64,000 nt of DNA from Planctomicrobium piriforme (lineage in GTDB: Bacteria; Planctomycetota; Planctomycetia; Planctomycetales; Planctomycetaceae). This document shows positions 84 through 28,397 of this stretch, piece by piece (positions within the stretch are counted from its first letter, which is position 1; each line of letters opens with the position of its first letter). The stretch is taken from assembly GCA_945860955.1 (NCBI GenBank), contig CAMATH010000008.1, positions 1-64,000 of the forward strand. The letters run 5' to 3'. Below the pieces are notes generated by a model. It ran no database searches. It worked only from the letters and a program-made list of their open reading frames with translations, and had not been told where the DNA came from. The position numbers were made by a program, and so were the translations under genes.

Positions 84-443
84 TTATTCGCGAAGCGGTT
101 GGTCTGGCGAATCACAGTTGAACAGCCGGCAGCACATCGGCCGCGTGTCGTAAATTGTGCAGACGCGCGTGGTGCGGTCGAAAAAGCGACATGCCAGGCC
201 GTTTTCTCGATCGTTCAGTAAATAGCCGACTTGTTCATCGGTGACTCCTTTGAGCGGCCGGCATTCGAGGATCCTCGGTTCACGTTCGGCGTCTCGCATT
301 GTCGCCTCAATGATCAGTTTCTCGCAGCATTCGCCGCAATTGCACTGACATTTCACCGTGTGGTTCTGTTCCAGGCAGAGCTCGCACTCCTCTTCGTCAT
401 GCTCGCCTTCATCGTCGTATTCGTGTTCGTCGAGAGGTGGCAT
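84..443 (-). CDS. YkgJ-family cysteine-cluster protein
   Basis: A 119-residue soluble protein. The N-terminus is very acidic (residues 1-20 mostly Asp/Glu/His) and contains a CELC pair. It is followed by CQCNCGECCEKL and later by TIYDTRPMCCRLFNCD, the spaced Cys pattern of the YkgJ/UPF0153 zinc- or iron-chelating family. The family is small (about 100-130 aa) and its biochemical role is not established. The start ATG at 443 has no strong Shine-Dalgarno, but the acidic N-terminus is in frame. It heads the left end of the window on the same strand as the next small genes. Family call fairly sure, function unknown. Confidence 0.75.
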   Translation of the reverse strand: MPPLDEHEYDDEGEHDEEECELCLEQNHTVKCQCNCGECCEKLIIEATMRDAEREPRILECRPLKGVTDEQVGYLLNDRENGLACRFFDRTTRVCTIYDTRPMCCRLFNCDSPDQPLRE

Positions 444-4186: not shown

Positions 4187-6031
4187 TTACCGAACTCGAA
4201 CCAGGACGACTCTAAAGCCGTTCAGGTCGAATCGGGTTTCCGGCGCGTAGCCGTTTCGAGCCGCAGATCGGCAGCCGACGGCTTCGCTGTTGTAGGTTCC
4301 TCCGCGAATCACGCGGTTCTTCGCGCCCGCGCTCACCTCGGGATCGCGCCCGCCGGGCAGTTTCTTTTCAAACCAGTCGCGGCACCATTCGAATACGTTC
4401 CCATGCATGTCGTAAAGCCCCCATGCGTTTGGCGAGTACGATCCGACTTTCGCAGTTCGATTGAGATAAGCCCCCTTGGTGGCACGGTGTCCCGGCCCAC
4501 CCACGGCGGGATCGTCAGTCGGACTCGCGTAGGGAGCCTTCTTGGCGTTCGGTCCGTACGGAGATAACCCGTCGCAGTTTGCGTCACGTCCATTCAGAGA
4601 CCCGCCGTACGCAAAGGGGGTCTTTGATCCCGCCCGGCATGCGTATTCCCATTGAGCCTCAGTCGGTAGTGAAAACTCCCAATTCGCCGGCAGTTGCCCG
4701 TTCTGTCGCTCTTGATCCGTCAGTTTTCGGCAGAATCCAAACGCATCGTCATACGACACACTGTCGACAGGAAACTGTTCGGTCGCCTCGCTCGCGACGC
4801 GTGCATTTTGACGTCCTCCTGCGGTAAAAGCGCTGGGATTGCTTCCCATCACCTGTTCATACTGTTTCTGAGTGACTTCGTACTTCCCCGTCCAGAACCC
4901 ATCTGATAATTCGACTGAAGTCTGGTCCTCGAATTCCGATCGTCCCTTTTCCTTTTTCGGGCTTCCCATCGTGAATTTTCCAGCAGGGCACCACACCAAC
5001 GCCAACCTCAATCCGTTGTCGTCGCGTTCCTGGCCGGCTTTCTTACCGAGCAGGTCCGTAGACGCAGCTTTACCGCCAAGTGGTATCGTCGGCGATTCTC
5101 GCTTCTGTGCGGGCTCCGGTTTGACTGGGCTCACCTTCGCCAGCATCGCCGCCGGGATCAGCACGAGGGGTTCTCCCTCAACATTCGAGATCTGGTTCGG
5201 CCGCTGCCGGCCGCCGTCGGCGCCGTACACTTTGTCGACCTCGGCCGGCACGTTCTTTCGCACGTACGCCGCCAGCGAGTCAAAAGTAACCTGCTGGTCG
5301 TTGTCTCGCGCCTTGCCGCTGAGGCCCTCGATCACGCTGTGGAAGAACGCCCCGTGCCCTCCGCCGAACTGCTTGTTCTCGAACGAGAATTCCCCTTTGG
5401 AACAACTGAGGAGAACTGCAGTCTGCCCTGGCAACTCGCCCAGATTCACACGGTCGATTCCGATCGTTTTGACCCCCTTCGTTTTCGGTTCGTTCCGGCA
5501 GGCGTCCACCAAGACGAGTTTGTGCCCCACCCCTGATTCCTCCACTAGAGTCAGCAATTCCCCCACGCTGACCAGTGTTTGTGGAAACTTGGGAACCTGC
5601 TTCTTTCCCTGGTCGATGTCGCTCATCGTCGGGTTGGCGTCCGCCGGGCAGAAGAAACTGTCCCCCGAACCGCGGGGCTGCAAGCCATGCCCGGAGAGTC
5701 CGAGCAGCACGAGGTCGTCCCGGCCGACCTTCCGATTCTGGAGAAACTCGGGCAATCGTTTGCGGATATTCTCAGCCGTCGGCTTCCACAGTTGGTCGCG
5801 TTTACCCTGCTGAGGGGTGAGGGTGACAACGTCAAACCCGACCTCTCCCAGACGATTCGCCATGTCGTTGATGTCTCGCTCGGTGAATTCGAGCGGGTCG
5901 AGGCCGGCGTGGGAATACTCGGTGACCGCCACGAGAAACGCGAGTCGTCGGCCTTCCGCGGCAAAGCCGCTCGTCGGGGCGCAGAACAACGAAACCACGA
6001 CAAGGACGAGTGCACTCGGGACATGTTGCAT
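4187..6031 (-). CDS. Exported caspase-like protease fused to FGE-sulfatase domain (paralogue 1)
   Basis: 614 aa. A Sec-type signal peptide occupies residues 1-25. The caspase-like (peptidase C14) domain spans about 28-290, with catalytic His115 in LSGHG and Cys178 in VDACRN. A Pro-rich linker (about 300-335) follows, then an FGE/SUMF1-type domain of the C-type-lectin fold at about 340-614 (MGSP, EVTQ, LPTEAQWEYACRAG, MHGNVFEWCRD, RGGTYNSE, GFRVVLVR). FGE-type domains in such fusions usually bind ligands and are not catalytic, so this reads as a sensor-protease. Its 3' end corresponds to the variable region of the paralogues but ends LNGFRVVLVRVR and differs from the template remnant at adenines and non-adenines alike. 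It has its own 300-bp upstream region. Confidence 0.88.
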   Translation of the reverse strand: MQHVPSALVLVVVSLFCAPTSGFAAEGRRLAFLVAVTEYSHAGLDPLEFTERDINDMANRLGEVGFDVVTLTPQQGKRDQLWKPTAENIRKRLPEFLQNRKVGRDDLVLLGLSGHGLQPRGSGDSFFCPADANPTMSDIDQGKKQVPKFPQTLVSVGELLTLVEESGVGHKLVLVDACRNEPKTKGVKTIGIDRVNLGELPGQTAVLLSCSKGEFSFENKQFGGGHGAFFHSVIEGLSGKARDNDQQVTFDSLAAYVRKNVPAEVDKVYGADGGRQRPNQISNVEGEPLVLIPAAMLAKVSPVKPEPAQKRESPTIPLGGKAASTDLLGKKAGQERDDNGLRLALVWCPAGKFTMGSPKKEKGRSEFEDQTSVELSDGFWTGKYEVTQKQYEQVMGSNPSAFTAGGRQNARVASEATEQFPVDSVSYDDAFGFCRKLTDQERQNGQLPANWEFSLPTEAQWEYACRAGSKTPFAYGGSLNGRDANCDGLSPYGPNAKKAPYASPTDDPAVGGPGHRATKGAYLNRTAKVGSYSPNAWGLYDMHGNVFEWCRDWFEKKLPGGRDPEVSAGAKNRVIRGGTYNSEAVGCRSAARNGYAPETRFDLNGFRVVLVRVR

Positions 6032-6339: not shown

Positions 6340-8103
6340 TCATTGGATGGAACTCAGGGAAAGCCGAAATCCGAGCATGGTCACCCGGTTGTCGGGATGC
6401 GCTTCCACGCGGTGTGCCGACCGCGAGTAGTACTCAAAATCGGCGAAGCTGCCACCCCGGATGACTCGTCTCGCGCCCTGACTCACTAGTGGATCGTTTC
6501 CTCCGGGCAACCTCATCCGGTACGCATCCCTGCACCACTCATTGACATTTCCATGCATGTCGTACAACCCCCACCGGCTCTTCTTGTACGATCCCACGAC
6601 AGCTGGCCGACGCGGACTCTTTCCTTTATTCGCGGGAACGCTACTGAAGTTCGCGTTGTCGCTGTTTAGGGATTTACCGAATGAGAACGGCGTAGAAGAT
6701 TCCGCACGACAGGCATACTCCCATTGCGCTTCCGTAGGTAGCGTGTAATTCCATCCAGCCGGTAAGCGCCCTGCGGCGCGCTCTTGTTCCGTGAACTTCG
6801 CGCAAAACTCCATCGATTCGTCCCACGAGACGGTCTCCACCGGAAATCGCGCCGTCTGGAGGCCGACGACATCGTCACTCCAACGTCCAGTCGCTGCGAC
6901 GCCGCTCGGATTCTTACCAATGACCTGTTCGTATTGAGCTTGCGTTACCTCGAACGTTCCCAGCCAGAATCCGTTCGACAATGTGACTGTGACCTGGTCT
7001 TCGTCAGGTCTCCGCCCCTTTTCATCTTTCGGGCTTCCCATAACGAACGTTCCCGGGGGGCACCACACCAGTTTCAACTCCAAACCATTGTCGTCGCGTT
7101 CCTGGCCCGCTTTTTTTCCTAGAAGATCACCAGTCGCGTTCGTACCTGCCGTAGGTTGCGTCGGTGGTTCACGATTCGGAGCGGGTCGGGGATTGGCTGG
7201 ACTCACTTTCGCCAGCATCGCCGCCGGGATCAGCACCAGTGGTTCTCCTTCAACGTTGGAGATCTGATTCGGCCGCTGCCTGCCCCCCGCGGCGCCGTAA
7301 ACCTTGTCGACCGCGGCCGGAACGTTCTTTCGCACGTACGCCGCCAGCGAGTCAAACGTAATCTGCTGGTCGTTGTCGCGCGCCTTGCCGCTGAGGCCCT
7401 CGATCACCTGATGAAAAAACGCCCCGTGACCGCCGCCGAACTGCTTGTTCTCAAACGAGAATTCCCCTTTGGAACAACTGAGCAGGACGGCAGTCTGCCC
7501 CGGCAGTTCTCCCAGATTCACGCGGTCGATTCCGGTCGTCTTCGCTCCCTTTGATTTTGGTTCATTCCGGCAGGCGTCGACCAGAACCAGTTTGTGTCCC
7601 ACTCCCGATTCGTCCATCAGCGACAGCAACTCACCCACGCTGACCAACGTCTGAGGAAACTTGGGCGTCTGCTTCTTCCCTTGATCGATGTCGCTCATCG
7701 TCGGGTTGGCGTCCGCCGGGCAGAAAAAGCTGTCCCCCGACCCGCGCGGCTGCAAGCCGTGTCCCGACAATCCCAGCAGCACCAGGTCGTGGCGGCCCAC
7801 TTTTCGGTTGTGCAGAAACTCCGGCAGTTGTGTGCGGATGTTCTCTGCCGTCGGCTTCCACTTCGGATCAGTCTTGCCGCGCTGTGGAGTCAGGGAGACG
7901 ACGTCAAACCCGACTTCCACGAGGCGCTTGGCCATATCGTTGATGTCGCGCTCCGTGAATTCAAGCGGATCGAGGCCGGCGTGGGAATACTCGGTCACCG
8001 CCACCAGAAACGCCAGCCGGCGGCCTTCCGCGGAATCAACGCTTGTTGGAGCGCAGAACAACGAAACCACGACGACGACCAGTGCAACCGGGACATTTTG
8101 CAT
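6340..8103 (-). CDS. Exported caspase-like protease fused to FGE-sulfatase domain (paralogue 2)
   Basis: 587 aa from ATG 8103. A longer reading to 8184 would overlap the upstream gene and add 27 residues before the signal peptide, so I rejected it. Sec-type signal (residues 1-25), caspase-like domain with His115/Cys178, linker, FGE domain to the end (RRVIRGGSF...DNRVTMLGFRLSLSS). The caspase half is almost identical to that of 17056-19698 while the FGE half is clearly different, a mosaic pattern. It begins 16 bp after the stop of 8120-9697 and is therefore probably translated from the same mRNA, pairing an FGE-bearing caspase with an FGE-less one. Confidence 0.87.
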   Translation of the reverse strand: MQNVPVALVVVVVSLFCAPTSVDSAEGRRLAFLVAVTEYSHAGLDPLEFTERDINDMAKRLVEVGFDVVSLTPQRGKTDPKWKPTAENIRTQLPEFLHNRKVGRHDLVLLGLSGHGLQPRGSGDSFFCPADANPTMSDIDQGKKQTPKFPQTLVSVGELLSLMDESGVGHKLVLVDACRNEPKSKGAKTTGIDRVNLGELPGQTAVLLSCSKGEFSFENKQFGGGHGAFFHQVIEGLSGKARDNDQQITFDSLAAYVRKNVPAAVDKVYGAAGGRQRPNQISNVEGEPLVLIPAAMLAKVSPANPRPAPNREPPTQPTAGTNATGDLLGKKAGQERDDNGLELKLVWCPPGTFVMGSPKDEKGRRPDEDQVTVTLSNGFWLGTFEVTQAQYEQVIGKNPSGVAATGRWSDDVVGLQTARFPVETVSWDESMEFCAKFTEQERAAGRLPAGWNYTLPTEAQWEYACRAESSTPFSFGKSLNSDNANFSSVPANKGKSPRRPAVVGSYKKSRWGLYDMHGNVNEWCRDAYRMRLPGGNDPLVSQGARRVIRGGSFADFEYYSRSAHRVEAHPDNRVTMLGFRLSLSSIQ

Positions 8104-8119
8104 GTTTGAAGCCTGCGGA

Positions 8120-9697
8120 TCAGCGGTCGGCCAGCTTAAGTGACAATGGAATCGTCTGATTTCCCTGATGCCATTTTCCATCAAGTTGTTGTCGATTCTT
8201 GCTTAGATTCCCATGGAAGTCCGCACCCAGGCTCGTTGACTTCAACACCACTTTGTCTCCTTTGACATCCACGGCTTCAAACGGGATTCCATAGGAATCC
8301 TGTTCAGGACTGTCGAAGGTGGCCGCATAGTCACCGTTCCTGGTTTTTCCAAAGTGCACAACTAGCCGAAATTCGCGCGTGCCGACCTTTAGAAGCCCGG
8401 CATAAAGCGATTCCCGTCCTACAAATGGCAAACGCGCGCCCGACAGCCAGACGCCGTCCATGGCTCCTTCGGAATCAAACACCAGTCTAACATCGAATAC
8501 ACGTGTATCGAATGAACATGTCGCGATCACCACGTCGAGTTTCCGAGCACCATGTGCGACTTGGTTCGACTGCAGGTCTGAAACGCCGTCAAACTCACCC
8601 AGATTGGCAGTCGAACTCTGCCACGCGCCGCGCAATTTGTCGGTGGGCAATAACTTGAGCAATGCGGGCGAGAATCCTGACCGCGCTCGATCAAATTCGC
8701 CGGCGGCCAGGTCGCCTATGAATGTTCGAGCCCTTTTTTCCAATTTGGAAGTGTGATTCGTTTTTGATTCTTCGTTTGGAAGATCGTTGTTCGAGGCGGC
8801 AACTGAAGTCAAGTTGCTCAGTACTGGCGGTTCCCCCTCAAAATTTGTTATCAAGTTTGGTCGCTGCTTGACTCCATCGGCGACATTCAGCCGTCCAACC
8901 GCGGCCGGAACGGTCTTCCGAACGTAGGCCGCCAAAGAATCCCAGGTAACTCGGCCATCGCCGTCACGCGCTTTGCCGCCCAGTCCCTCGATGACACTGT
9001 AAAAGAACGCCCCGTGCCCTCCACCGAACTGCTTGTTCTCGAACGAGGACTCTCCGCGCGAGCAACTTAAGAGTACGCCCGTTTGAGCCGGCAGTTCTCC
9101 GAGGTTCACGCGGTCAATCCCACCCGTTGCTTTCGCTCCCTTCGACTTTGGCTCGTTTCGACAGGCATCCACCAGCAACAGCTTATGCCCCACTCCTGAT
9201 TCGTCCAGCAGCGTCAACAGTTCGCCCACGCTGACCAGCGATTGCGGAAACCTAGGCGTCTGCTTCCTTCCTTGATCGGACTCGGTCATCGTTGGGTTTG
9301 CATCGGCCGGACAGAAGAAGCTGTCCCCCGAACCGCGTGGCTGCAAGCCATGCCCGGAAAGCCCAACCACCACCAGATCGTTGCGATTGACTTTCCGATC
9401 GAGCAGAAACTCAGAAAGCCGTTTTCGAACGTTTTCGGAAATTGGCTTCCACTTCGGGTCGGTCTTGCCGCGCTGCGGAGTGAGTGAGACAACGTCGTCA
9501 AAACCGACCTCTCCCAGCCGTTTGGCCATTTCGTCGATGTCGCGCTCGGTGAACTCGAGCGGGTCAAGGCCCGCGTGGGAGTACTCTGTGACCGCCACCA
9601 GAAACGCCAGCCGTCGGCCATCCTCGGGAAAGGCCCTCGCAGGGTCGCAGAAGAACGACGCCGCAACGAGGATCAGTACGATTGGGACTTGTCGCAT
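8120..9697 (-). CDS. Exported caspase-like protein with DUF3887-like and beta-sandwich C-terminus (paralogue 3)
   Basis: 525 aa. Sec-type signal (1-24), caspase-like domain with His116 and Cys179 (one extra residue, FDDVVS, near 68). FGE is missing. Residues about 325-400 (RARTFIGDLAAGEFDRARS...LRGAWQ) resemble DUF3887. Residues about 430-525 resemble the beta-rich N-terminal module that precedes alpha/beta-hydrolase domains in some secreted esterases, but no hydrolase follows. It probably represents a caspase with a different recognition module, or an effector lacking a sensor. Transcribed toward 6340-8103 with a 16-bp gap. Upstream sits the small membrane protein gene 9871-10149, an arrangement repeated at 12685-14593. 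Confidence 0.8.
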   Translation of the reverse strand: MRQVPIVLILVAASFFCDPARAFPEDGRRLAFLVAVTEYSHAGLDPLEFTERDIDEMAKRLGEVGFDDVVSLTPQRGKTDPKWKPISENVRKRLSEFLLDRKVNRNDLVVVGLSGHGLQPRGSGDSFFCPADANPTMTESDQGRKQTPRFPQSLVSVGELLTLLDESGVGHKLLLVDACRNEPKSKGAKATGGIDRVNLGELPAQTGVLLSCSRGESSFENKQFGGGHGAFFYSVIEGLGGKARDGDGRVTWDSLAAYVRKTVPAAVGRLNVADGVKQRPNLITNFEGEPPVLSNLTSVAASNNDLPNEESKTNHTSKLEKRARTFIGDLAAGEFDRARSGFSPALLKLLPTDKLRGAWQSSTANLGEFDGVSDLQSNQVAHGARKLDVVIATCSFDTRVFDVRLVFDSEGAMDGVWLSGARLPFVGRESLYAGLLKVGTREFRLVVHFGKTRNGDYAATFDSPEQDSYGIPFEAVDVKGDKVVLKSTSLGADFHGNLSKNRQQLDGKWHQGNQTIPLSLKLADR

Positions 9698-10629: not shown

Positions 10630-12621
10630 TTACTTGACGGAACTGAGGGCCAGACGGAAGCCCAGGTCGTGGCTCCGATGGCCGGGTGCGAACGCTCTGC
10701 GGTATGCCGACCGGCATCTTACGGGGTCGCTGAACCAGCAACCGCCGCGGAGCACCCGCACCGAGCCCTCAAACGAAGGCGGCCCGACAGGGTCGATCGC
10801 CGTGTTGCTTGAAAACTGACCACCGTAGTACATCGAATCGTATGTGTCTTCACACCATTCGAACACATTGCCAACCATGTCGTACAATCCGAAATTGTTG
10901 GCCACGTACGTTCCGGTTGGCGCTGTGAAAACGTAACCGTCCTTCGCTGAGATCGTGGTCCAGTTCGGGAATTTTGCCTTGGCGGTTCCGTCTCGAATGT
11001 TGGCGATTTTGGCGAGAGTCTCTGGATCGACGCCCGAAGGGTACCGCGTCGTCGTTCCGGCCCGGGCGCAGTATTCCCATTCCGCCTCTGTCAACAGCCG
11101 GTACCCACCTCCGTCCGTTTTGCCGTTCAGCCACTCCACATATTTCTGCACATCGTTCCATGTCACATTCACTACTGGATGATTTTCGCCGTACGGCGAC
11201 CAGCCGACAGTTTTCCAGTTGTATTTTTCCGACGCTTTGAACTCCCCGGCCGCAAAATCGTACCCACCCCCCCCTTTCGCGTCCCGCTCCGCCTCGCTCA
11301 GGTATCCCGCGTCACTCGCGAACTTGGCAAAGTCGGCCTTCGTGATCTCACGTTGCGAGACGTAGAACGGCTCCGTCAATCGAACCCGATGTTGCTTTTC
11401 GTTGGTGTAATGTTCGAGTACCGTACCTGGAGTGCCGGTCTTCTTCTCGAATTCTCGAAGCTCCTCGGCGGACTCGATACTTCCCATCAAAAACTCCCCC
11501 GGCGGAATCAACACCATTGGAATCCCCACCGAGTTCTTTTCCACCACGCCCATCCGCCCCAGGTAACGGACCCATTCCTCCTGCCGCGCCCGGGCGGTCT
11601 TCTGGTCGAACGGGGCGGTCAGGGGTACGGGCTTCGGCCCCGGTGCACTCGATTTGTTGGGCAATGCTGGCTTGAGTCCGTCAATCTTCGCCAGCATCGC
11701 CGGCGTGAGCAGCACGGGTTGTTCCTGGCCGATGTTCGCGATCATGTGCGGCTGCTGGATGGCGCCCCCCTTCTTCAGGTGGTCGGTCCCGTTGATGCGG
11801 TCGGGGACCTCGTCGCAAACGTACGTCGCCAGCCGCTGCCAGGAGATGCGATTGCGCTTCGCGTCGATTGCCCCCCCTTTCAGTCCCTCAATCACGCACA
11901 TGAAAAACGCCCCGTGTCCACCGCCGAACGCCTCGTCTTCGTACGAGAACTGCCTGCGGGAACAGCTCAAGAGAACCGCCGTGCGGGGGGGAAGAATCGC
12001 CGTTTCGATTTCGTCGATGCCGCGAGTCGCCCCCTTGCGGGCCGTTTCGACGCGACAGGCGTCGACCAGCAGCAATTTGGGACCGATGCCGCTCTGCTTC
12101 AAGGTCCCCAGCACTTCCTGGATGCCGATCAGCGTCTCGGGATACTTCGGAACCTGCACCCGCCCCTCGTCCTTGACGTTGAACGTGGGGTTGGCATCGG
12201 CCGGGCAAAAGTAGCTGTCGCCCGAGCCGCGCGGTTGCAAACCGTGCCCGGAAAGCCCGACCAGAATAAGGTCGTTCTTGGTCACCCGCTTCGGCTTCGT
12301 CAGAAATTCGTCGAGGCGAACCCGCACATTGTCGGCGGTCGGTTTCATCCGTCCGTCCTTCTTGCCCCGCTGGAGTGAAAGAACCTGCACCTCGTATCCG
12401 ACTTCGCTCAACCATTAGCCGCTTTCCTCGACGTCGCGTTCGGTGTACGGCAGCGACTTCAAATCGTCGTGATCGTACTCCGAAACTCCCACGAAAAATG
12501 CCAGCCGCCTACCGGCTTCCTGGGCGTACGCCGCCTGCGGCCACCCTCCCAGCGCCAGGGTCAAAGCCAGACCAGCTAGCACGAACCGCCGTCGAGTGAA
12601 CGATCCCATGGATTGACTCAC
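10630..12621 (-). pseudogene. Caspase-FGE paralogue 4 interrupted by an in-frame TAA
   Basis: Residues 1-68 read from ATG 12621: a Tat-type signal (FTRRRFVLAGLALTLALG) and the first caspase strand up to ERDVEESG. Then TAA at 12415-12417, exactly in frame with the remaining 594 codons (WLSEVGYEV onward). The rest is intact: LSGHG and VDACR catalytic motifs, linker, FGE domain with RVLRGGCW and LGFRLALSSVK. Aligned with 28397, the stop replaces a small residue (VEASSALL versus VEESG-stop-WL). Either a recent nonsense mutation or sequencing error, or translation restarts at TTG 12411, which would give a cytosolic form lacking the signal and part of the fold. The variable region is still paralogue-like, so decay must be recent. 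Confidence 0.75.
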
Positions 12622-15065: not shown

Positions 15066-16859
15066 CTATTTGACGGAACTGAGGGCCAGACGGAAACCCA
15101 AGCTGCTGTACCGGGAGCCAGGTGAGTTCCTGTTCCGGTCCGCCGACCGGCAGCGGGACGCGTCGCCGAGCCAAGGGCCGCCTCGGGGCACCCGCTGCGA
15201 ACCCCCCTTGACTTCCGGATCCGTCCCGCCAGGGAGTTTGACTTCGTACGCGTCGCGGCACCACTCCATAACGTTCCCGTGCATGTCGTGCAGGCCCCAG
15301 CGGTTATTCGGGTACGACCCGACAGTCGTCGGTCGCTTCAGGTACTTCCCTTTCGCACTCGTCCCGTACGGGTTCGTCCCGTCGCAATTCTCCTCGATTC
15401 CATTCAGGCTCTCGCCAAAGGAAAACGGCGTCGTCGATTCCGCTCGGCACCCATACTCCCATTGCGCCTCGGTCGGCAGTGTGTATTCCCAGCCCGCCGG
15501 CAACCGCCCCGCGACGCGTTCTTGTTCCGTGAACTTCTGACAGAACTCCAATGCCTCTTCCCACGACACCGTTTCGACAGGGAAGTCCCCCGTCTGCATC
15601 CCGGAAACGTCGGATTTCCGCTCGCCTGTGGAAGAGAACGCGCTCGGGTTCTTTCCCATGATCCGTTCGTACTGCGCCTGCGTCACCTCGTACTTCCCCA
15701 GCCAGTAACCAGACAGTTTGACCTGCACTTGAGCTTCATCGTTCTGTCGGTCTTTCTCACTGGCCGGGCTTCCCATCGTAAAACTTCCGTCCGGACACCA
15801 GACGAGTTTGAGCTTAATCGCATTGTCGTCACGCGCTTGCCCGGCTTTCGTGCCCCTAGCGCCGATGACGCTCCCGTTCAATTGCGAGGATTCCGTCGGC
15901 ACGGGGATCTTCGTTTTCGGTCCAACTTTGTCTGCATTCAACTTCTCCACGCTCGCCGCCGTCAACAACACCGGCGATTCTCCCTCAGTATTCGAAATCA
16001 AATTCGGCCGCTGCTTTCCTCCCTGTGCGCCGTAGACCTCCGTCACCGACCGTGGGACCCGTCTTTTGACGTATGCCGCGAGCGAATCCCAGGTCACCTG
16101 TTGTTCATCGTCGACGGCCCGCCCCGACAGTCCCTCGATCACGCTGTGGAAAAACGCTCCGTGCCCTTCGCCGAATCTTTTGTGCTCAAACGACGTTTCT
16201 CCCTTCGAACAACTTAACAGCACCGCCGTCTGCGACGGGAGCTCGCCCAGATTCACCTTGTCGATCCCAGCGACCGTCTTCCCTCCTTTCGACTTCGGTT
16301 CGTTTCGGCAGGCGTCGACCAGTACCAGTTTTTGCCCCACCCCCGATTCGTCGAGCATGGTCAGCAGTTCTCCGACGCTCACCAAAGAGTCCGGGTCTTT
16401 TGGCGTCTGCTTCTTTCCCTGGTCCAGCTCGGCCATCGACGGATTCGCGTCGATCGGACAAAAGAAACTGTCGCCCGATCCCCGCGGCTGCAACCCGTGA
16501 CCCGACAGCCCCAGCAACACCAGATCGTGCCGCGACACTTTTCGGCTCTTCAAGAATCCCGCCAAACCGGTACCGATATTCGCCGCCGTCGGCTGGAGTT
16601 TCGCATCCGACTTTCCCGATTTCGGCGTGAGCGCCAAAACCTGGAACCCGGCCCCGGTCAATTGCCGGCCGAAGTCTTCGATGTCGCGCTCGGTGAATTC
16701 GAGCGGATCGAGGCCCGAATGGCGGTATTCGGTCACGGCGACCAGAAACGCCAGGCGTTGACCTGGTTCCTGAGCCGGAACGAGAGCCGGAGAGCCGATC
16801 CATGCCGTCGCCAGGAACAGGCTGGCGAGCAGAAGTTGACGTCGTGGAAACTGTGGCAT
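15066..16859 (-). CDS. Tat-exported caspase-like protease fused to FGE domain, DGR-type variable region (paralogue 6)
   Basis: 597 aa from ATG 16859; a 20-residue longer reading would precede the signal peptide and lacks support. Twin-arginine signal (FPRRQLLLASLFLATAW), caspase-like domain with His121 and Cys184, Ser/Thr/Pro linker, FGE domain (MGSPASEKD, LPTEAQWEYGCRAE, MHGNVMEWCRD, RVPRGGPW). The C-terminus is PGSRYSSLGFRLALSSVK. Its last coding stretch matches the template remnant at 25542-25594: 23 nt identical next to an 18-nt block in which 6 of 9 template adenines and none of 9 other bases have changed. That is the signature of DGR mutagenesis. An ECF promoter lies 60 bp upstream. Caspase half nearly identical to 19930-21723. 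Confidence 0.88.
   Translation of the reverse strand: MPQFPRRQLLLASLFLATAWIGSPALVPAQEPGQRLAFLVAVTEYRHSGLDPLEFTERDIEDFGRQLTGAGFQVLALTPKSGKSDAKLQPTAANIGTGLAGFLKSRKVSRHDLVLLGLSGHGLQPRGSGDSFFCPIDANPSMAELDQGKKQTPKDPDSLVSVGELLTMLDESGVGQKLVLVDACRNEPKSKGGKTVAGIDKVNLGELPSQTAVLLSCSKGETSFEHKRFGEGHGAFFHSVIEGLSGRAVDDEQQVTWDSLAAYVKRRVPRSVTEVYGAQGGKQRPNLISNTEGESPVLLTAASVEKLNADKVGPKTKIPVPTESSQLNGSVIGARGTKAGQARDDNAIKLKLVWCPDGSFTMGSPASEKDRQNDEAQVQVKLSGYWLGKYEVTQAQYERIMGKNPSAFSSTGERKSDVSGMQTGDFPVETVSWEEALEFCQKFTEQERVAGRLPAGWEYTLPTEAQWEYGCRAESTTPFSFGESLNGIEENCDGTNPYGTSAKGKYLKRPTTVGSYPNNRWGLHDMHGNVMEWCRDAYEVKLPGGTDPEVKGGSQRVPRGGPWLGDASRCRSADRNRNSPGSRYSSLGFRLALSSVK
15079..15180 (-). other. Variable region (VR) of caspase-FGE paralogue 6
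   Basis: 3' part of the FGE domain, approximate limits. 15079-15101 is identical to the template remnant (25552-25574) and would be the homing-initiation side. 15102-15119 aligns to 25575-25592 with changes only at template adenines (A to G, T or C). Confidence 0.65.
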
Positions 16860-17055: not shown

Positions 17056-19698
17056 TCAATGAGCGGAAACACACGCGAGGCGGAATCCCAGATAGTTGAA
17101 ACTGCGCGTCGGCAGAGTGCTGCTGCGTGCGGCCGACCGGCAGTCGATAGGGCGTCCCGTACTCCAGGAACCACCGCGGTTCACTCGCTGCGAACCAGCG
17201 TCGACCAGCGGATCGATCCCCCCGGGCAATTTCTCGGCGTACGTGTCGCGGCACCATTCCCTCACATTGCCGTGCATGTCGTGAAGGCCCCATTTGTTGG
17301 CCGGATACGAGCCAACCTGCACCGGTGACTTGATGGGATTCAGAGCCTGGCCAGTTGGCGACCTTGGCAGATACTCCGCACTGAAATTCGCCTGCTCGCC
17401 GCTGAGTTTGTCGCCAAACGAGAACGGTTTGACGCTGGTGGCGGTTCGACAGGCGTATTCCCATTGAGCCTCTGTTGGCAGAGTGTATTCCCAATCAGAC
17501 GGCAATCTGCCAGCCGCGCGTTCTGATGCTGTCAGTTGTCGACAGAATTCCAGCGAGTCGTCATACGACACCATCTCGACAGGATATCGTTCATATTGCT
17601 TTGGGTTTTTCGCGACGCCGGAGAATCGGCTTGGTTTTGCGTTCATCACTCGAAAGTACTCGGCCTGCGTCACCTCAAATTTCCCCAGCCAAAAGCCTTT
17701 GGTAAGCGTCACGGAAACCTGATCTTCATCCATTTTCCGTTGTTTTTCGACCTTCGGACTCCCCATTTTGAAATCACCCGGCGGACACCACACCAGTTTC
17801 AGCTTCAGTGCGTTGTCGTCGCGTTCCTGGCCTGCTGTTGCTCCATTCAGTTCGCCAATCGCAGTCGTATCCACCGGTGTTTCCGCGGATTCATCGCGAT
17901 TCGGTGCATGCACAACGTTAACTTCACTGAGGGCCACGCGGAAGCCCAGCATGGGGCTGCTCCGATCGTCGGGCGAACATGCGAATCGGCACGCCGATCG
18001 GCAGTGCTCTGCGCCGCCAGTGTACCAACCGCCGCCACGGACTGCCCGCTCCGAGCCCGTCTTCACTTCGGGGTCCGTCCCGCCAGTAAGTTTCCAGTTG
18101 TACGCGTCACGACACAATTCCCACACGTTTCCGTGCATGTCGTGAAGGCCCCATTCATTTGCGGGATAAGAGCCGACAACCGTGGTGCGTCCCAGGTTCT
18201 TGCCTTTGTTTGTCGTGCCATACGGTATCTCCCCATCGCAATTCGCTTCGGTTCCGTTTAAACTCTGGCCGAACGAAAACGATGTGTCGCTTTTTCCCGT
18301 GCGGCAAGCGTATTCCCATTGTGCCTCGGTCGGAAGGTTGTACTCCCAGCCGGCCGGCAGGCGACCAGCCTTCCGCTCCGTTTCGGTGAACCTCTTGCAC
18401 AACACCATGGCGTCGTCGTACGACACCTGTTCTACCGGGAATTGCGCAGTCTGTTGGCTCGAAACTCGCGACGCGCCTTCACCGCTAGCGGTGAAGAAAC
18501 TCGGGTTCTTGCCCATGACCTGTTCGTATTGAGCTTGCGTCACCTCGAACTTTCCCAGCCAGAACCCGTTCGACAATGTGACTGTGACCTGGTCTTCGTC
18601 AGGTTTGCGCCCCTTTTCATCTTTCGGGCTGCCCATTCGGAACGAACCCTTCGGACACCACACCAGTCTCAACTTCAATATATTGTCGTCGCGTTCCTGG
18701 CCCGCTTTTGTCTCTTGAATATCCCCAGTTTCGGTCGTGCCTGCCGTAGGTTGCGTCGTTGGTTCGCGTTTTGGAGCGGGTCCGGGATTGACGGAATTCA
18801 CTTTCGCCAGCATTGCCGTCGGAATCAGCACCAGCGGTTCACCTTCCACGTTGGAGATCTGGTTCGGCCGCTGCCTGCCCCCCGCGGCGCCGTAAACCTT
18901 GTCGACCGCAGCCGGAACGTTCTTCCGCACGTAGGCCGCCAGCGAGTCGAATGTAATCTGCTGGTCGTTGTCGCGAGCCTTGCCGCTCAAGCCCTCGATC
19001 ACCTGATGAAAAAACGCCCCGTGACCGCCGCCGAACTGCCGATTCTCGAACGAGAATTCCCCTTTGGAACAACTGAGCAGGACGGCCGTCTGCCCCGGCA
19101 ATTCCCCGAGATTCACGCGGTCGATACCGGTCGTCTTCGCCCCCTTGGACTTCGGTTCATTCCGGCAGGCGTCGACCAGCACCAGTTTGTGTCCCACTCC
19201 CGATTCGTCCATCAGCGACAGCAACTCACCCACGCTGACCAACGTCTGAGGAAACTTGGGCGTCTGCTTCTTCCCTTGATCGCTGTCGCTCATCGTCGGA
19301 TTGGCGTCCGCCGGGCAGAAAAAGCTGTCCCCCGACCCGCGCGGCTGCAAGCCGTGTCCCGACAATCCCAGCAGCACCAGGTCGTGGCGGCCCACTTTTC
19401 GGTTGTGCAGAAACTCCGGCAGTTGTGTGCGGATGTTCTCCGCCGTCGGCTTCCATTTCGGGTCGGTCTTGCCCCTCTGCGGTGTCAAGGAAACAACGTC
19501 GAATCCGACTTCCGCCAGGCGCTTCGAAAGATCGTCAATGTCGCGCTCGGTGAATTCGAGCGGGTCGAGTCCGGCGTGGGAGTACTCGGTCACCGCGACC
19601 AGATACGCCAGGCGGCGGCCCTCTGCCGAAAAGGCGGTTCCAGGAGCGCAGAGCAAAGACGTTGCGACAGCGAGGATTACCAACGGGATTTGTCGCAT
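17056..19698 (-). CDS. Exported caspase-like protease with two tandem FGE domains (paralogue 7)
   Basis: 880 aa, about 280 longer than its siblings. Sec-type signal (1-25), caspase-like domain with His115/Cys178, first FGE domain about 335-600 (ending SPMLGFRVALSEVN), a short linker (VVHAPNRDESAETPVDTTAIGELNG), second FGE domain about 630-880 (ending NYLGFRLACVSAH). The linker repeats the GxxAGQERDDN(A/I)LKLKLVWCP segment that begins each FGE module, so the second module was probably added by duplication or recombination with another paralogue. The caspase half is near-identical to 6340-8103. Only the second FGE has the gene-terminal position a DGR variable region needs; the first is internal and could not be retargeted. 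Confidence 0.87.
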   Translation of the reverse strand: MRQIPLVILAVATSLLCAPGTAFSAEGRRLAYLVAVTEYSHAGLDPLEFTERDIDDLSKRLAEVGFDVVSLTPQRGKTDPKWKPTAENIRTQLPEFLHNRKVGRHDLVLLGLSGHGLQPRGSGDSFFCPADANPTMSDSDQGKKQTPKFPQTLVSVGELLSLMDESGVGHKLVLVDACRNEPKSKGAKTTGIDRVNLGELPGQTAVLLSCSKGEFSFENRQFGGGHGAFFHQVIEGLSGKARDNDQQITFDSLAAYVRKNVPAAVDKVYGAAGGRQRPNQISNVEGEPLVLIPTAMLAKVNSVNPGPAPKREPTTQPTAGTTETGDIQETKAGQERDDNILKLRLVWCPKGSFRMGSPKDEKGRKPDEDQVTVTLSNGFWLGKFEVTQAQYEQVMGKNPSFFTASGEGASRVSSQQTAQFPVEQVSYDDAMVLCKRFTETERKAGRLPAGWEYNLPTEAQWEYACRTGKSDTSFSFGQSLNGTEANCDGEIPYGTTNKGKNLGRTTVVGSYPANEWGLHDMHGNVWELCRDAYNWKLTGGTDPEVKTGSERAVRGGGWYTGGAEHCRSACRFACSPDDRSSPMLGFRVALSEVNVVHAPNRDESAETPVDTTAIGELNGATAGQERDDNALKLKLVWCPPGDFKMGSPKVEKQRKMDEDQVSVTLTKGFWLGKFEVTQAEYFRVMNAKPSRFSGVAKNPKQYERYPVEMVSYDDSLEFCRQLTASERAAGRLPSDWEYTLPTEAQWEYACRTATSVKPFSFGDKLSGEQANFSAEYLPRSPTGQALNPIKSPVQVGSYPANKWGLHDMHGNVREWCRDTYAEKLPGGIDPLVDAGSQRVNRGGSWSTGRPIDCRSAARSSTLPTRSFNYLGFRLACVSAH

Positions 19699-19929: not shown

Positions 19930-21723
19930 TTACTCAAGAGAACTCAGCGCGAGGCGGAAACCGAGGAAGTTGAGCCTGTGTTCGGGCGCGTAGTTGTCGC
20001 GACACGCCGACCGGCAAAGCACGGCGCTCGTGTTCCAACTGCCGCCTCGGAACGCCCGATGCGAGCCGCCCTTGGTCTCCGGATCGGTCCCGCCCGGTAG
20101 TTTGTCTGCGTATGTGTCGCGACACCATTCCCGCACGTTTCCGTGCATGTCGTGCAACCCCCAGTTGTTCGCAGCATACGAGCCGACCGTTGTCGTGCGT
20201 CCCAAGGATTTCCCTTGGATCGTGGTACCGTAGGGGAATTCCCCGTGGCAATTCACCTTGTTCCCATTCAGGCTGCCGCCGAAGAAATACGGCGTCGTGG
20301 TGCCTGCGCGGCACGCGTATTCCCATTGCGCTTCCGTAGGCAGTGTGTACTCCCAGCCCGCCGACAGACGACCTGCCGCGTGCTCCTGTTCGGTGAACTT
20401 CCGGCAAAACTCCAGCGCCTCCTCCCACGACACGTTTTCCACCGGGAAGTCTCCCGTCTGCATTCCCGCGACTTTGGATTCCTGCTTACCTGCAGGGGAG
20501 AAGTCGCTCGGGTTCTTTCCCATGATCCGTTCGTACTGCGCCTGCGTCACCTCATACTTTCCCAGCCAATAACCCGTCAGTTTCACCTGCACTTGTGCTT
20601 CGTTGAACTCTCGAACCTTCTCATTGGCAGGACTCCCCATCGCAAAACTTCCGTCGGGACACCAGACCAGCCTTAACTTCAGTTGGTTGTCGTCGCGCTC
20701 CTGCCCCGCTTTTGTCCCTTTCGCCCCAACCACCTTGCCGGGCTCCGTGAACTTCTCCGGTTTGGTCGATTTCGGCGACTCCTTCGGCAATCTGCCTGCA
20801 TTCAACTTCGCCACACTCGCCGCCGTCAACAGCACCGGCGATTCCCCTTCAGTATTCGAAATCAGATTCGGCCGCTGCTTCCCTCCCTGGGCGCCGTAAA
20901 CCTCGGTCACCGACCGCGGAACACGCCGGCGGACGTACGCCGCCAGCGAATCCCAGGTCACCTGCTGTTCATCGTCGACCGCCCGCCCCGACAGCCCTTC
21001 GATCACACTGTGGAAAAACGCCCCGTGCCCCTCGCCGAACTTTTTGTGCTCGAACGACATCTCTCCCCTGGAGCAACTCAGTAGTACTGCCGTCTGCGAC
21101 GGAAGCTCGCCCAGATTCACCTTGTCGATCCCGGCGACCGTTTTCCCTCCCTTCGACTTCGGCTCATTCCGGCAGGCGTCGACCAGCACCAGTTTCTGCC
21201 CGACTCCCGATTCCTCGAGAGTCGTCAGCAGTTCGCCGACACTGACCAGCGTGTCTGGCTCTTTCGGCGTCTGCCTTTTCCCCTGGTCCAGCTCGGCCAT
21301 CGACAGATTCGCATCGATCGGGCAAAAGAAACTGTCGCCCGATCCCCGCGGCTGCAACCCGTGCCCCGACAGCCCCAGCAATACCAGATCGTGCCGCGAC
21401 ACCTTTCGGCTCTTCAAGAACTCCGCCAGACGGGTACGGATATTCGCCGCCGTCGGCTGGAGTTTCGCATCCGACTTTCCCGATTTCGGTGTGAGCGCCA
21501 AAACATCGAACCCGGCCCCGGCTAATTGCCGGCCGAAGTCTTCGATGTCGCGCTCGGTGAATTCGAGCGGATCGAGACCTGAATGGCGATACTCGGTCAC
21601 GGCGACCAGAAACGCCAGCCGCTGACCTGGGTCTTGCGCCCAAACGAGAGTCGGAGAGCCGATCCATGCCGTCGCCAGGATCAGACTCGCCAGCAGAAGT
21701 TCACGTCGTTGGAGCTGTCGCAT
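19930..21723 (-). CDS. Tat-exported caspase-like protease fused to FGE domain (paralogue 8)
   Basis: 597 aa, starts MRQLQRRELLLASLILATAW, a twin-arginine-type signal. Caspase-like domain with His121/Cys184, linker with repeated Lys/Pro/Glu, FGE domain ending PEHRLNFLGFRLALSSLE. The first 300 residues are almost the same as in 15066-16859, the FGE half less so. Against the template remnant, 5 of 9 adenines but also 2 of 9 other bases differ, so it is a diverged rather than a fresh variable region. ECF promoter 60 bp before ATG. Confidence 0.87.
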   Translation of the reverse strand: MRQLQRRELLLASLILATAWIGSPTLVWAQDPGQRLAFLVAVTEYRHSGLDPLEFTERDIEDFGRQLAGAGFDVLALTPKSGKSDAKLQPTAANIRTRLAEFLKSRKVSRHDLVLLGLSGHGLQPRGSGDSFFCPIDANLSMAELDQGKRQTPKEPDTLVSVGELLTTLEESGVGQKLVLVDACRNEPKSKGGKTVAGIDKVNLGELPSQTAVLLSCSRGEMSFEHKKFGEGHGAFFHSVIEGLSGRAVDDEQQVTWDSLAAYVRRRVPRSVTEVYGAQGGKQRPNLISNTEGESPVLLTAASVAKLNAGRLPKESPKSTKPEKFTEPGKVVGAKGTKAGQERDDNQLKLRLVWCPDGSFAMGSPANEKVREFNEAQVQVKLTGYWLGKYEVTQAQYERIMGKNPSDFSPAGKQESKVAGMQTGDFPVENVSWEEALEFCRKFTEQEHAAGRLSAGWEYTLPTEAQWEYACRAGTTTPYFFGGSLNGNKVNCHGEFPYGTTIQGKSLGRTTTVGSYAANNWGLHDMHGNVREWCRDTYADKLPGGTDPETKGGSHRAFRGGSWNTSAVLCRSACRDNYAPEHRLNFLGFRLALSSLE

Positions 21724-25259: not shown

Positions 25260-25541
25260 AGGGAATTCTCGCGAAGAGGGAAAGCCTATCGGGAGGATGA
25301 ATTGCGTGGATTCATCCCCGACACTCCACTGGAAGCAGTTCGGCTGTGAGTCGTAACTGATTGCCGGTTGATGGACTTCGGATGAACGCAGGGCGGGAAA
25401 AATCTCCCGCACTCCAGGGAAAATCCCCCGGAGCGTTCGCGAAAGGCTACCAGCACCGGGGGATCGACTTCAAATTTTCGCCTTCGAAGGAAAACCCTCT
25501 CGGGACGGGAGAATGGTCGGTTCCGTCATTGGCTTCCGCCG
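25260..25541. other. No gene seen; where a DGR reverse transcriptase would be expected
   Basis: In a DGR cassette a reverse transcriptase normally follows the template on the same strand. I find no reverse-transcriptase motif (such as YxDD) or long reading frame here, so that gene is deleted from this locus. Confidence 0.5.
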
Positions 25542-25594
25542 TTTGAGGGAGCTGAGGGCCAGACGGAAACCCAAGTTGTTGTTCCGGTTGTCGG
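25542..25594 (-). other. DGR template-repeat (TR) remnant, 3' end only
   Basis: On the minus strand the sequence reads CCGACAACCGGAACAACAAC then TTGGGTTTCCGTCTGG and CCCTCAG. Translated in the target frame it is PDNRNNNLGFRLALSSLK, the Asn-codon-rich (AAC) signature of DGR templates for FGE/C-type-lectin targets. It matches the 3' ends of the caspase-FGE genes. There is no start codon, signal or FGE body, so it is not a gene fragment in service. The 5' part of the template is missing: it joins directly to the accessory fragment at 25594. Confidence 0.72.
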
Positions 25595-25743
25595 TCGACG
25601 CAAAAACACCACAAAGACGCCGCGCCCTGTTCAAGCCAGCGACGTTCGACATTCAAAATCTGGTGAGTTCGCAGAAACAGGTTGAGTTCGTCCTCCGCAG
25701 GAGACGGACCGAGAATGGGAAGCACAAACGATCGATAAGCCAT
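25594..25743 (-). pseudogene. N-terminal fragment of a DGR-associated (HRDC-type) accessory protein
   Basis: 50 residues from ATG 25743: MAYRSFVLPILGPSPAEDEL then LNLFLRTHQILNVERRW and GAASLWCFCVD. From memory this pattern (small protein, ELNxFLxxHxILxVER, then GxxSxWxxCV) is the conserved N-terminus of HRDC-type accessory proteins coded beside DGR or related reverse transcriptases. The frame then passes straight into the template remnant at GTCGAC, so a deletion has fused the two. The position between target gene and template is the usual accessory place. Confidence 0.55.
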
Positions 25744-25821: not shown

Positions 25822-26546
25822 GTCGAGTAGGCCCGGGGGATTGCTCCCCCGGACCTCTCACAGAACCGGACTTGTGGTTCACACATCCGGCTCTTTGAAG
25901 TGAACATCAGCGTCGAAGACGTTCTCCGACACTCAACCTCACGTTCCGCTTGCGCTTCCCGCGAGGCTGCTGGATTCGGTCGTCAGGTTGAACTCGTTTG
26001 TGCAGCAGGCGTAGGCTCTTCCGCGGATTCGTCCGCGAACGCACCTCTCCCGCCCCCCAAAGGGCTGTCGGCGAACACGAGTATCAGGTTGACGTGACTC
26101 CACGCTTCTCACTCCATGACCCCCTTCGCTCCACCGGCTTTCACCGGCTTCAACGCTACTATGGGACCATCCGACTTCTCTCCCGGCTTCGGACTGCCGT
26201 TGTTTACCTTCGGCAACCCTACCGCACTTGCGGACCTGAAGAGATCTCTGAGGGTAAGAACGAACAATGTCCCGCTGCGCCCGTCCCCACTACCTGCCTG
26301 TCACGACTGGATATTGGGCTTAGCGTAAGGTGGCACGCTCACCCGGACAGGCCGGCCTTACGGGGCTTCACTCTCGTTCGGTGCTGCGGTTCGCCATCCG
26401 GCTTCCATTCCACACGCACTCGCGGGGAGGTCGCGCCCGATCACGTGACCGGTCACTTCCCGTGCAGTTGCCTTCGGCTCTTGGTTTCCTCCAGTTGGAC
26501 CCAAAAGGGACTTTCACCCTCAATTGTTCATTCATGCCTCACGCAC
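25822..26546 (-). mobile_element. ORF-less group II intron
   Basis: Minus strand 5' end GTGCGTGAGG, with the domain I hallmark GAGGGTGAAAGTCCC about 25 nt further in. The 3' end has a 31-nt domain V hairpin (25863-25893) and a domain VI-like hairpin (CCGGGGG/CCCCCGG), ending ACTCGAC. About 725 bp in all, with no reverse-transcriptase/maturase frame in either direction, so it would need help in trans. It is inserted in the 3' element of the caspase gene 26532-28397: removing it restores a sequence colinear with the other two copies of that element. Insertion beside a terminator-like hairpin is typical of class IIC introns. Confidence 0.72.
25863..25893 (-). ncRNA. Group II intron domain V
   Basis: Minus strand GAGCCGGATGTG, loop TGAAC, CACA, two-base AG bulge, TCCGGTTC: the 8-bp stem, bulge and short upper stem of domain V, the catalytic core of group II introns. 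Confidence 0.75.
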
Positions 26547-28397
26547 GTCCGGGCCTCCGCTCCCGGCTCCGCTCGACTGTTCCTGTTCGCCTGCTGACTG
26601 GACGGGACTCAGGGCCAGGCGGAAGCCCAAGATGTAGTTCCGGAGGCCGGGCGAGTTGAGGTAGCGAGCCGCCGACCGGCAGCGCACGGCGACGCTGTTC
26701 CAACCGCCGCCACGGAGCACCCGCAGCGAGCCCGTTTTTGCAACCGGGTCCGTTTTTCCAGGGAGTTTCGCTTCGTACGCGTCGAGGCACCACTCCCACA
26801 CGTTGCCGTGCATGTCGTGCAGCCCCCACTTGTTCGCCGGATACGAGCCGACCGTCGTCGTCCGTTTCAAATAGTCACCTTTGTTCGTTGTACCGTACGG
26901 GTTCGTTCCGTCACAATTCGCCTCGGTTCCGTTCAGGCTCGTGCCGAATGAAAACGGCGTCACACTCTCTTTCGTCCGGCAAGCGTACTCCCATTGCGCC
27001 TCCGTCGGCAGGGTGTACTGCCAACCGGTGGGGAGCCTCCCCGCCTTCCGCTCGGCCTCGGTGAACTTTTTGCAGAATTCGAGGGCGTCGTCGTATGAGA
27101 CCTGTTCGACGGGAAACTCCGCGGTCTGCTGGCCCGAAACACGTGATTTCCCTTCCCCCGTCGCGCAGAAATAGCTGGGATTCTTTCCCATGATCTTTTC
27201 GTACTGCGACTGCGTCACTTCGAATTTCCCCAACCAGAAGCCGCTCGACAGCGTGACGTCGACCTGGTCTTCTTCTCTATGCCCGGTTTCGTTTTTGGGA
27301 CTTCCCATGCGAAAACTGTCGGGGGGGCACCAGACCAACTTTAGCTTCAGGGCGTTGTCGTCGCGCACTTGGCCTTCCTGAGTCCGTTTTACCGTTCCAA
27401 TCACGCTCGCAGGCGATTCCTTCGGAATCGTGTTCTTCGGAATGTCGACTTTACCGGCATTGGGGCTGATCTTCGCCAGCACGCTCGCCGGGATCAGCAC
27501 GGGGGGCTGCCCTTCAAGATTCGATTTGAGGTTCGGATGTTGCTGCGCGCCGTCGTTCTTCAACTGCGGCACCGCTTCGATTCGCGCAGGGACCTCTTCG
27601 CGTACGAACCCCTGCAGAGAATCCCACGTCACTCGATTCTTCAGGTCAGCGCCGGCTCCCTTCAATCCATCCAGCACAGTGTGAAAAAACGCCCCGTGCC
27701 CGCCCCCGAACGCCTCGTTTTCATACGAGTATTCCCCTCGCGAACAACTCAGCAGCACCGCTGTCTGCGGCGGCAGTTCGGCAAGGGTCAACCGGTCGAT
27801 GCCGCCGGCGCTCCGCCGGGTTCCCTTCGATTTCGGTTCCGTGCGGCAGGCGTCGACCAGCACCAGCTTGGGACCGATTCCGCTGTCTTCCAGCGTCTGC
27901 AGCAATTGTGCGATGCTGAGCAGGGTTTTGGGGGCCTGCGGAACTTGTACGCGCCCTTCGTCTTCGAGAGTCATCGACGGATTAGCGTCGAGCGGGCAGA
28001 AAAAGCTGTCGCTGGAACCGCGCGGCTGCAAACCGTGCCCGGTCAGCCCCACGATGATCAGATCGCGCCGCGTCACCTCGCGCGATTCGAGGAATTCCTT
28101 GAGCCGATCGCGAATGTTGGCGGCGGTCGGCCGCAATTTGGCGTCTTTCTTTCCTCGCGCCCCAGAAAGGACCACCAAGTCGTATTCGGCCTGCTTAAGC
28201 AGTGCCGAGCTCGCTTCGACGTCGCGCTCGGTGTAGGGGAGCGGATCGAGGGCGGCATGATTGTATTCGGGAACGGCGACGAAAAACGCCAGCCGGCGGC
28301 CTGGGTCCTGGGCTTTGACCAGAACCGGAAGGCCGAACAAAGCGGCGGCCGGAATCAGACCGGCCAGCAGGAGTCGACGTCGCGGGAACTGTCGCAT
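26532..28397 (-). CDS. Tat-exported caspase-like protease fused to FGE domain, probable DGR target (paralogue 9)
   Basis: 621 aa from ATG 28397; a 91-residue longer reading is unsupported. Twin-arginine signal (FPRRRLLLAGLIPAAAL), caspase-like domain with His121 (LTGHG) and Cys184 (VDACR), linker, FGE domain (LPTEAQWEYACRTK, MHGNVWEWCLD, RVLRGGGW) and GLRNYILGFRLALSPVQ. The frame then runs on for about 28 residues and into the intron, which supplies the last codons and stop; without the intron it would end a few codons later in the 3' element. In the 18 nt aligned to the template remnant 5 of 9 adenines and 0 of 9 other bases differ. It lies immediately upstream of the accessory/template wreck, so it was the resident target of that cassette. 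Confidence 0.85.
   Translation of the reverse strand: MRQFPRRRLLLAGLIPAAALFGLPVLVKAQDPGRRLAFFVAVPEYNHAALDPLPYTERDVEASSALLKQAEYDLVVLSGARGKKDAKLRPTAANIRDRLKEFLESREVTRRDLIIVGLTGHGLQPRGSSDSFFCPLDANPSMTLEDEGRVQVPQAPKTLLSIAQLLQTLEDSGIGPKLVLVDACRTEPKSKGTRRSAGGIDRLTLAELPPQTAVLLSCSRGEYSYENEAFGGGHGAFFHTVLDGLKGAGADLKNRVTWDSLQGFVREEVPARIEAVPQLKNDGAQQHPNLKSNLEGQPPVLIPASVLAKISPNAGKVDIPKNTIPKESPASVIGTVKRTQEGQVRDDNALKLKLVWCPPDSFRMGSPKNETGHREEDQVDVTLSSGFWLGKFEVTQSQYEKIMGKNPSYFCATGEGKSRVSGQQTAEFPVEQVSYDDALEFCKKFTEAERKAGRLPTGWQYTLPTEAQWEYACRTKESVTPFSFGTSLNGTEANCDGTNPYGTTNKGDYLKRTTTVGSYPANKWGLHDMHGNVWEWCLDAYEAKLPGKTDPVAKTGSLRVLRGGGWNSVAVRCRSAARYLNSPGLRNYILGFRLALSPVQSAGEQEQSSGAGSGGPDVREA
26590..26720 (-). other. 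Variable region (VR) of caspase-FGE paralogue 9
   Basis: Approximate limits. 26631-26648 aligns to template 25575-25592: A to G, A to C and three A to T changes, no change at C or G. Beyond it toward the 3' end the two sequences share CTTGGG(C/T)TTCCG(C/T)CTGGCCCT with scattered silent differences. Confidence 0.6.

Follow-up and report, generated by a model that had tools for sequence, protein, structure and literature searches.

Probable remains of a diversity-generating retroelement beside a caspase-FGE gene array in Planctomicrobium piriforme, with a covarying hairpin behind its template repeat

The first 64,000 nucleotides (nt) of contig CAMATH010000008.1 of Planctomicrobium piriforme (assembly GCA_945860955.1; below, the window, on contig C8) carry, next to an array of seven caspase-FGE genes, what is very probably a diversity-generating retroelement (DGR) inactivated by a single internal deletion of some 1.4 kb; the element would once have diversified the 3' ends of the caspase-FGE genes, which are now most likely frozen. 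The order on the minus strand is caspase-FGE gene, group II intron, start of the DGR accessory gene, end of the template repeat (TR), spacer and 3' hairpin (Table 1). This caspase-FGE gene, 26532-28397, is the last member of the array and has the FGE fold (PF03781), with a variable repeat (VR) at its 3' end. There is no DGR-type reverse transcriptase (RT) at the locus, and none of the five RVT_1 matches of the genome lies on C8, so that this is a remnant rather than a working member of its class. A preliminary description, made from the sequence alone, had read the place as the wreck of such an element inside a caspase array, and this reading is supported and largely holds. The strand order that it gave is indeed that of a DGR cassette, as in a Singulisphaera metagenome-assembled genome (MAG; locus L039), but it had missed the intron and the whole of the spacer and hairpin (25416-25547).

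Only the N-terminal 50 codons of the accessory gene are present at the locus. The minus-strand open reading frame (ORF) that starts at 25743 gives MAYRSFVLPILGPSPAEDELNLFLRTHQILNVERRWLEQGAASLWCFCVD before it enters the repeat out of frame. These 50 residues match the N-termini of the DGR accessory proteins of relatives, the best three with 46-48% identity (E-values in Table 1), and each is followed by an RT. The fragment had been described as HRDC-type; its kinship with the accessory proteins stands, but the HRDC domain (PF00570), which is found in the accessory proteins of contigs C141 and C49, is absent from the 50 residues and falls within the deletion. The first 5 nt of the repeat as previously delimited (TCGAC) fit the accessory gene, L039 reading TGCGTCGACTAC there, and probably belong to it, leaving 25548-25593 as the TR remnant. 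For this reason the deletion junction has been placed at 25593/25594, with an ambiguity of about one base. Four intact relatives have 1422 (L039), 1412 (L042), 1463 (L044) and 1413 nt (L045) between accessory codon 50 and the point of the TR that is joined to it here. The missing piece would comprise the rest of the accessory gene, the RT and the 5' part of the TR; the loss of the last two had been noticed before, and about 115 accessory codons, including the HRDC domain, have gone with them.

The order of the intact element, obtained from an RT search of the assembly and from RT- and accessory-based fetches of related loci, is FGE target, HRDC accessory, RT, TR, spacer and hairpin, with the TR either overlapping the RT stop codon or sitting just behind it. 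The RT carries a DGR-type motif, which is IGSLMSQ in C141. L039 has all of these components in order, and the gene upstream of its cassette is a caspase-FGE gene with the same architecture as the target in the window. Accessory and RT are found together in the family relatives G033, G035, G073 and G017 and in G137, from another family, the target lying directly upstream in most of them. These five genomes, the Singulisphaera MAG and C141 of the host genome all provide what the preliminary description had proposed to look for, an RT beside a repeat of this kind; the host genome itself is thus not DGR-free.

Read in the frame of the target, the AAC-rich repeat gives DNRNNNLGFRLALSS, without any FGE gene body. 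Its best genome-wide DNA matches are, as had been anticipated, the 3' ends of caspase-FGE genes, namely C225, C8:15066 and C8:10630 (81-89%); the genome-wide TR/VR search was by similarity only. The closest four VRs are those of C225, which is off the array, and of the array genes 15066, 26532 and 10630 (named, here and below, by their first coordinate). With five doubtful bases removed from the TR remnant, these VRs differ from it at 20 of 40 adenines and at 12 of 144 other bases (column-shuffle p 1.5e-4). Before the GFR codons the differences fall on 20/36 adenines and 3/52 other bases, and none of 20,000 shuffles was as extreme. The adenine changes are all at codon positions 1 or 2, and 10 of the 12 other changes are at position 3. 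The VR of 26532, compared over the part before the GFR codons, differs at 6/10 adenines and 0/17 other bases, or 5/9 and 0/13 when the 5 nt possibly belonging to the accessory gene are left out. The remnant and the four closest VRs therefore behave as a TR/VR pair with adenine-specific differences. A positive control from this genome, the TR of C141 against the FGE gene on C44, has 11/25 adenines and 1/85 other bases changed (p 1e-7).

Four TRs could be compared as possible sources of these VRs: the relic and those of C141, C143 and C258. Of these, the relic fits 15066, 10630, 26532 and C225 best, with 2, 5, 6 and 2 non-adenine mismatches of 36, respectively, against 9-15 of 36-37 for the other three TRs. 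No better TR for the array VRs was found in the 98.9%-complete assembly. It is because the other TRs of the genome match poorly outside the adenines that we regard the array VRs as most likely frozen; the assembly being fragmented, intact variants in other cells may nevertheless exist. The pattern of substitutions gives good support to a past hypermutation of 15066, 26532, 10630 and C225, and to this extent the earlier suggestion that the caspase sensors were once hypermutated is borne out, but not individually for 4187, 6340, 17056 and 19930. In the intact element the TR would have been transcribed and copied into cDNA with random substitution at adenines, and this cDNA written into the VRs of the neighbouring caspase-FGE genes and of one or more distant copies (C225 at least), so as to vary the binding surface of their C-type-lectin-like FGE domains. 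A single deletion would then have joined accessory codon 50 to the last ~46 nt of the TR and frozen the VRs.

Table 1. Coordinates of the DGR remnant, its intron and the caspase-FGE array genes in the window.
Feature	Position	Strand	Remarks
Caspase-FGE target adjoining the wreck	26532..28397	-	PF00656 + PF03781; VR at 3' end, about 26590-26700
ORF-less group II intron between target and accessory	25822..26530	-	Rfam RF02001 + RF00029; 5' end approximate
DGR accessory gene, first 50 codons (N-terminal part)	25594..25743	-	E 3e-12 to 5e-10 against accessory N-termini upstream of intact RTs
Putative deletion junction	25593..25594	.	~1.41-1.46 kb between the same points in four intact relatives
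Probable TR 3' end, ~46 nt (DNRNNNLGFRLALSS)	25548..25593	-	Adenine-specific differences from VRs
TR-hairpin spacer	25476..25547	-	25517-25599 has 72% identity to the C141 TR-spacer, E 4.7e-5
Conserved 3' hairpin, apparently of the DGR template RNA	25416..25475	-	Covariance model R1, 44.6 bits, E 4e-10
Caspase-FGE array gene, older VR	19930..21723	-	
Caspase-FGE array gene, older VR	17056..19698	-	
Caspase-FGE array gene, VR among closest to TR remnant	15066..16859	-	7/11 adenine and 3/40 other differences, p 3e-4
Caspase-FGE array gene, VR close to TR remnant	10630..12411	-	6/11 adenine and 6/40 other differences, p 0.013
Caspase-FGE array gene, older VR	6340..8184	-	
Caspase-FGE array gene, older VR	4187..6031	-	

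The hairpin behind the TR is a covarying RNA element and appears to be part of the DGR. An alignment of the sequence behind the TR of 24 loci, with the window copy left out, gave two helices in which 12 of 15 pairs have both partners replaced in one or more of the sequences. The covariation score is 0.665, compared with 0.220 in shuffles, and 86.6% of the paired cells can pair, compared with 37-50% when the structure is slid by 1-3 columns. Since the structure was written by hand from the alignment, the slide control is favoured by it; the shuffle control and the held-out matches are independent of that. An internal loop, UGGUA / GAA, has invariant residues beside the covarying helices and presumably recalls the loop-E (bulged-G) motif, which we take as a lead only. 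The covariance model R1, trained without the sequence of the window, recognises the window copy as a member of the family (Table 1) and gives 50 matches over 85 DGR-RT loci; refitted pair counts agree across these matches, with the caveat that this alignment was itself fitted to R1. The minimum free energy of the 3' region of the wreck alone is unremarkable (z -0.31), and it is the covariation that supports the hairpin.

The position of the element was scored for 49 hairpins, with the RT placed by tblastn and an Asn-rich TR frame defined as at least 7 Asn in 37 codons. Not one hairpin is on the strand opposite the RT, which precedes the hairpin in 43 of the 49 and follows it in 6. An Asn-rich TR frame lies at most 300 nt upstream of the hairpin in 46 and downstream in three; in three loci outside the scored set that were read by eye (L155, L157, L158) the TR is upstream too. 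With the TR so regularly upstream and the RT on either side, the hairpin goes with the TR and not with the RT. A second hairpin in a Desulfobacteraceae DGR locus (L050, 4345-4415) has no Asn-rich TR before it. Rfam 15 has no gathering-level match to the hairpin in L039, L044, L021 or L158, and no match to it at E 0.5 in the window; nor did we find a description of it in the literature searched, whose open-access coverage is partial. The DGR of Bordetella phage BPP-1 likewise has adenine mutagenesis and a structured spacer after its TR RNA, but it has an Avd accessory and the order TR-spacer-RT, and the identification of the hairpin with the BPP-1 spacer was rejected, R1 having no significant match in that cassette. 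We lean, with some reserve, towards the view that DGRs with HRDC-linked RTs in the Planctomycetota, Verrucomicrobiota, Bacteroidota and Desulfobacterota share an undescribed 3' structure of the template RNA, a counterpart of the BPP-1 spacer RNA, that persists as a tag of dead DGRs. At the 3' end of the template RNA it may serve as a handle, either for recruiting the RT or for helping cDNA synthesis to start.

A simpler explanation of the hairpin would be that it is a mere intrinsic transcription terminator of the cassette, and the run of T in which planctomycete copies often end fits this. A terminator would hardly call for an internal loop with invariant residues in addition to covarying helices, and in the six loci with the hairpin placed between TR and RT (7-10 nt before the start of the RT match in three) it would block the RT; we therefore think this explanation rather unlikely. 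The repeat, for its part, might be a caspase-FGE 3' end left by truncation of the gene, with an unrelated small ORF beside it by coincidence; TRs and FGE 3' ends are homologous by nature, and the remnant is short. However, the small ORF is the N-terminus of a DGR accessory in the right place and on the right strand, the repeat is followed by a DGR spacer and hairpin and not by the GC-rich sequence found after VRs, and the differences of the four closest VRs are adenine-specific, with the TR side keeping its adenines. As accessory, spacer and hairpin all adjoin the repeat, this alternative is already refuted, and we give it next to no credence.

There is a little more to be said for an assembly artefact that fused two different DGRs, one giving the 5' and the other the 3' part, because DGRs are repeated in this genome and contigs C141, C143 and C258 begin inside cassettes. 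Nevertheless, the accessory N-terminus has no near-identical second copy in the assembly, the other cassettes have a different TR end, spacer and hairpin, and both flanks lie within one array; moreover, G035:C108 has a similar deletion, with the accessory N-terminus kept, RT and TR lost and half of the hairpin left. Such a fusion is thus very improbable. It is also unlikely, though less so, that the DGR is degenerate while its targets are still diversified in trans, either by another RT/TR or by cells with an intact cassette. The genome does contain another DGR whose RT is intact, as well as two that are cut by contig ends, and both trans activity and intact structural variants have been reported for the degenerate loci of Thiohalocapsa PB-PSB1 (PMC10907252). 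The trans-diversified VRs of Thiohalocapsa, however, match their TR at all non-adenine positions (PMC10907252), which is far from being the case for the other TRs of the present genome, and the assembly offers no better one.

Several points weigh against a DGR killed in place by a single deletion. The TR remnant has only ~46 nt, and four of the seven array VRs (4187, 6340, 17056 and 19930) are too diverged for their adenine bias to be individually significant. The same locus with an intact RT, which the preliminary description had hoped for in related strains, did not turn up: no syntenic intact locus was found in the genus mates, which have neither the array (only FGE-level matches, about 50%) nor the accessory fragment nor the hairpin. 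A strain mixture or an assembly chimaera is possible as well.

R1 finds six hairpins in the host genome. C141 has a full-length RT, a TR and a hairpin, its contig beginning within the accessory gene; C143 begins immediately ahead of a TR almost identical to the C141 one, and C258 begins within the RT, followed by TR and hairpin. The other three hairpin loci, on C8, C26 and C198, look like wrecks. At C26:11630-11855 (about 3630-3856 of L143) a TR with an internal deletion is followed by spacer and hairpin and has neither RT nor accessory close by; on C198 (L153; hairpin 279-337, minus strand) an FGE target is followed by the hairpin, accessory, RT and TR being missing and nothing recognisable lying between. 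A different case is C49:16000-35900 (L007), with an FGE target, an accessory, an RT and an FGE gene but no recognised TR or R1 hairpin. Among the relatives, G035:C108 (L161) has an FGE target, about 34 codons of the accessory N-terminus and then the half hairpin, and G120:C17:34621-34746 (minus strand; L160), possibly another wreck, has about 40 such codons with no RT found nearby. In G032:C89 (L179) the VR of a caspase-FGE gene becomes TR-like towards its 3' end, with spacer and hairpin following straight on; the flank examined contains no RT match, and none from this genome is among the matches listed for the RTs of relatives. This may be the scar of a recombination between VR and TR, comparable to a solo long terminal repeat. 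VR and TR are direct repeats that flank accessory and RT, an arrangement that may make DGRs prone to loss. Two candidates were discarded: the ends of contigs C124 and C57, with a 19-nt match to the repeat, share the end of a transposase-like gene, and an accessory-like match in G114 (L162) has no DGR context and is due to chance.

Two further array members, 8120-9697 and 12685-14145 (both on the minus strand), match the caspase half of the target and lack the FGE half. The group II intron behind the target has its D1-D4 match (RF02001) at 26259-26429 (E 1e-12) and its D5-D6 match (RF00029) at 25822-25895 (E 9e-7), and is too short for an ORF. It lies just behind a short inverted repeat (CCGGG...CCCGG) that comes after the VR. 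Group IIC introns are known to insert behind such hairpins. Its D5-D6 part has 90% identity to a piece of contig C104.

Degenerate DGR loci (PMC10907252), HRDC accessories (PMC4891356) and DGR-linked caspase/FGE conflict genes (PMC10907252, PMC7159879) have all been published, and the wreck belongs to the first of these classes; the more surprising result is the TR-linked hairpin. Thiohalocapsa PB-PSB1 (Dore et al. 2024, PMC10907252) similarly has several related DGRs in one genome, some complete and others with their machinery missing or pseudogenized, with putative antigen sensors of conflict systems as targets and with intact variants of the degenerate loci in other cells. The locus in the window differs in its HRDC-type accessory and arrayed caspase-FGE targets, and in having an internal deletion, with no remaining TR that fits the array VRs, in place of the replacement by MITE-like (miniature inverted-repeat transposable element-like) sequences seen there. 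In Treponema denticola (PMC4891356) an HRDC accessory is also next to the RT, and remnant target genes occur in isolates without RT and TR, but the accessory there lies between TR and RT, whereas here the order is accessory, RT, TR, hairpin. The hairpin, if confirmed, would provide a sequence handle for the template RNA of HRDC-type DGRs and a means of finding wrecks that have lost their RT. As for the bacterium itself, it seems that targeted hypermutation can go one locus at a time, so that sensor arrays are left frozen while other DGRs of the genome persist.
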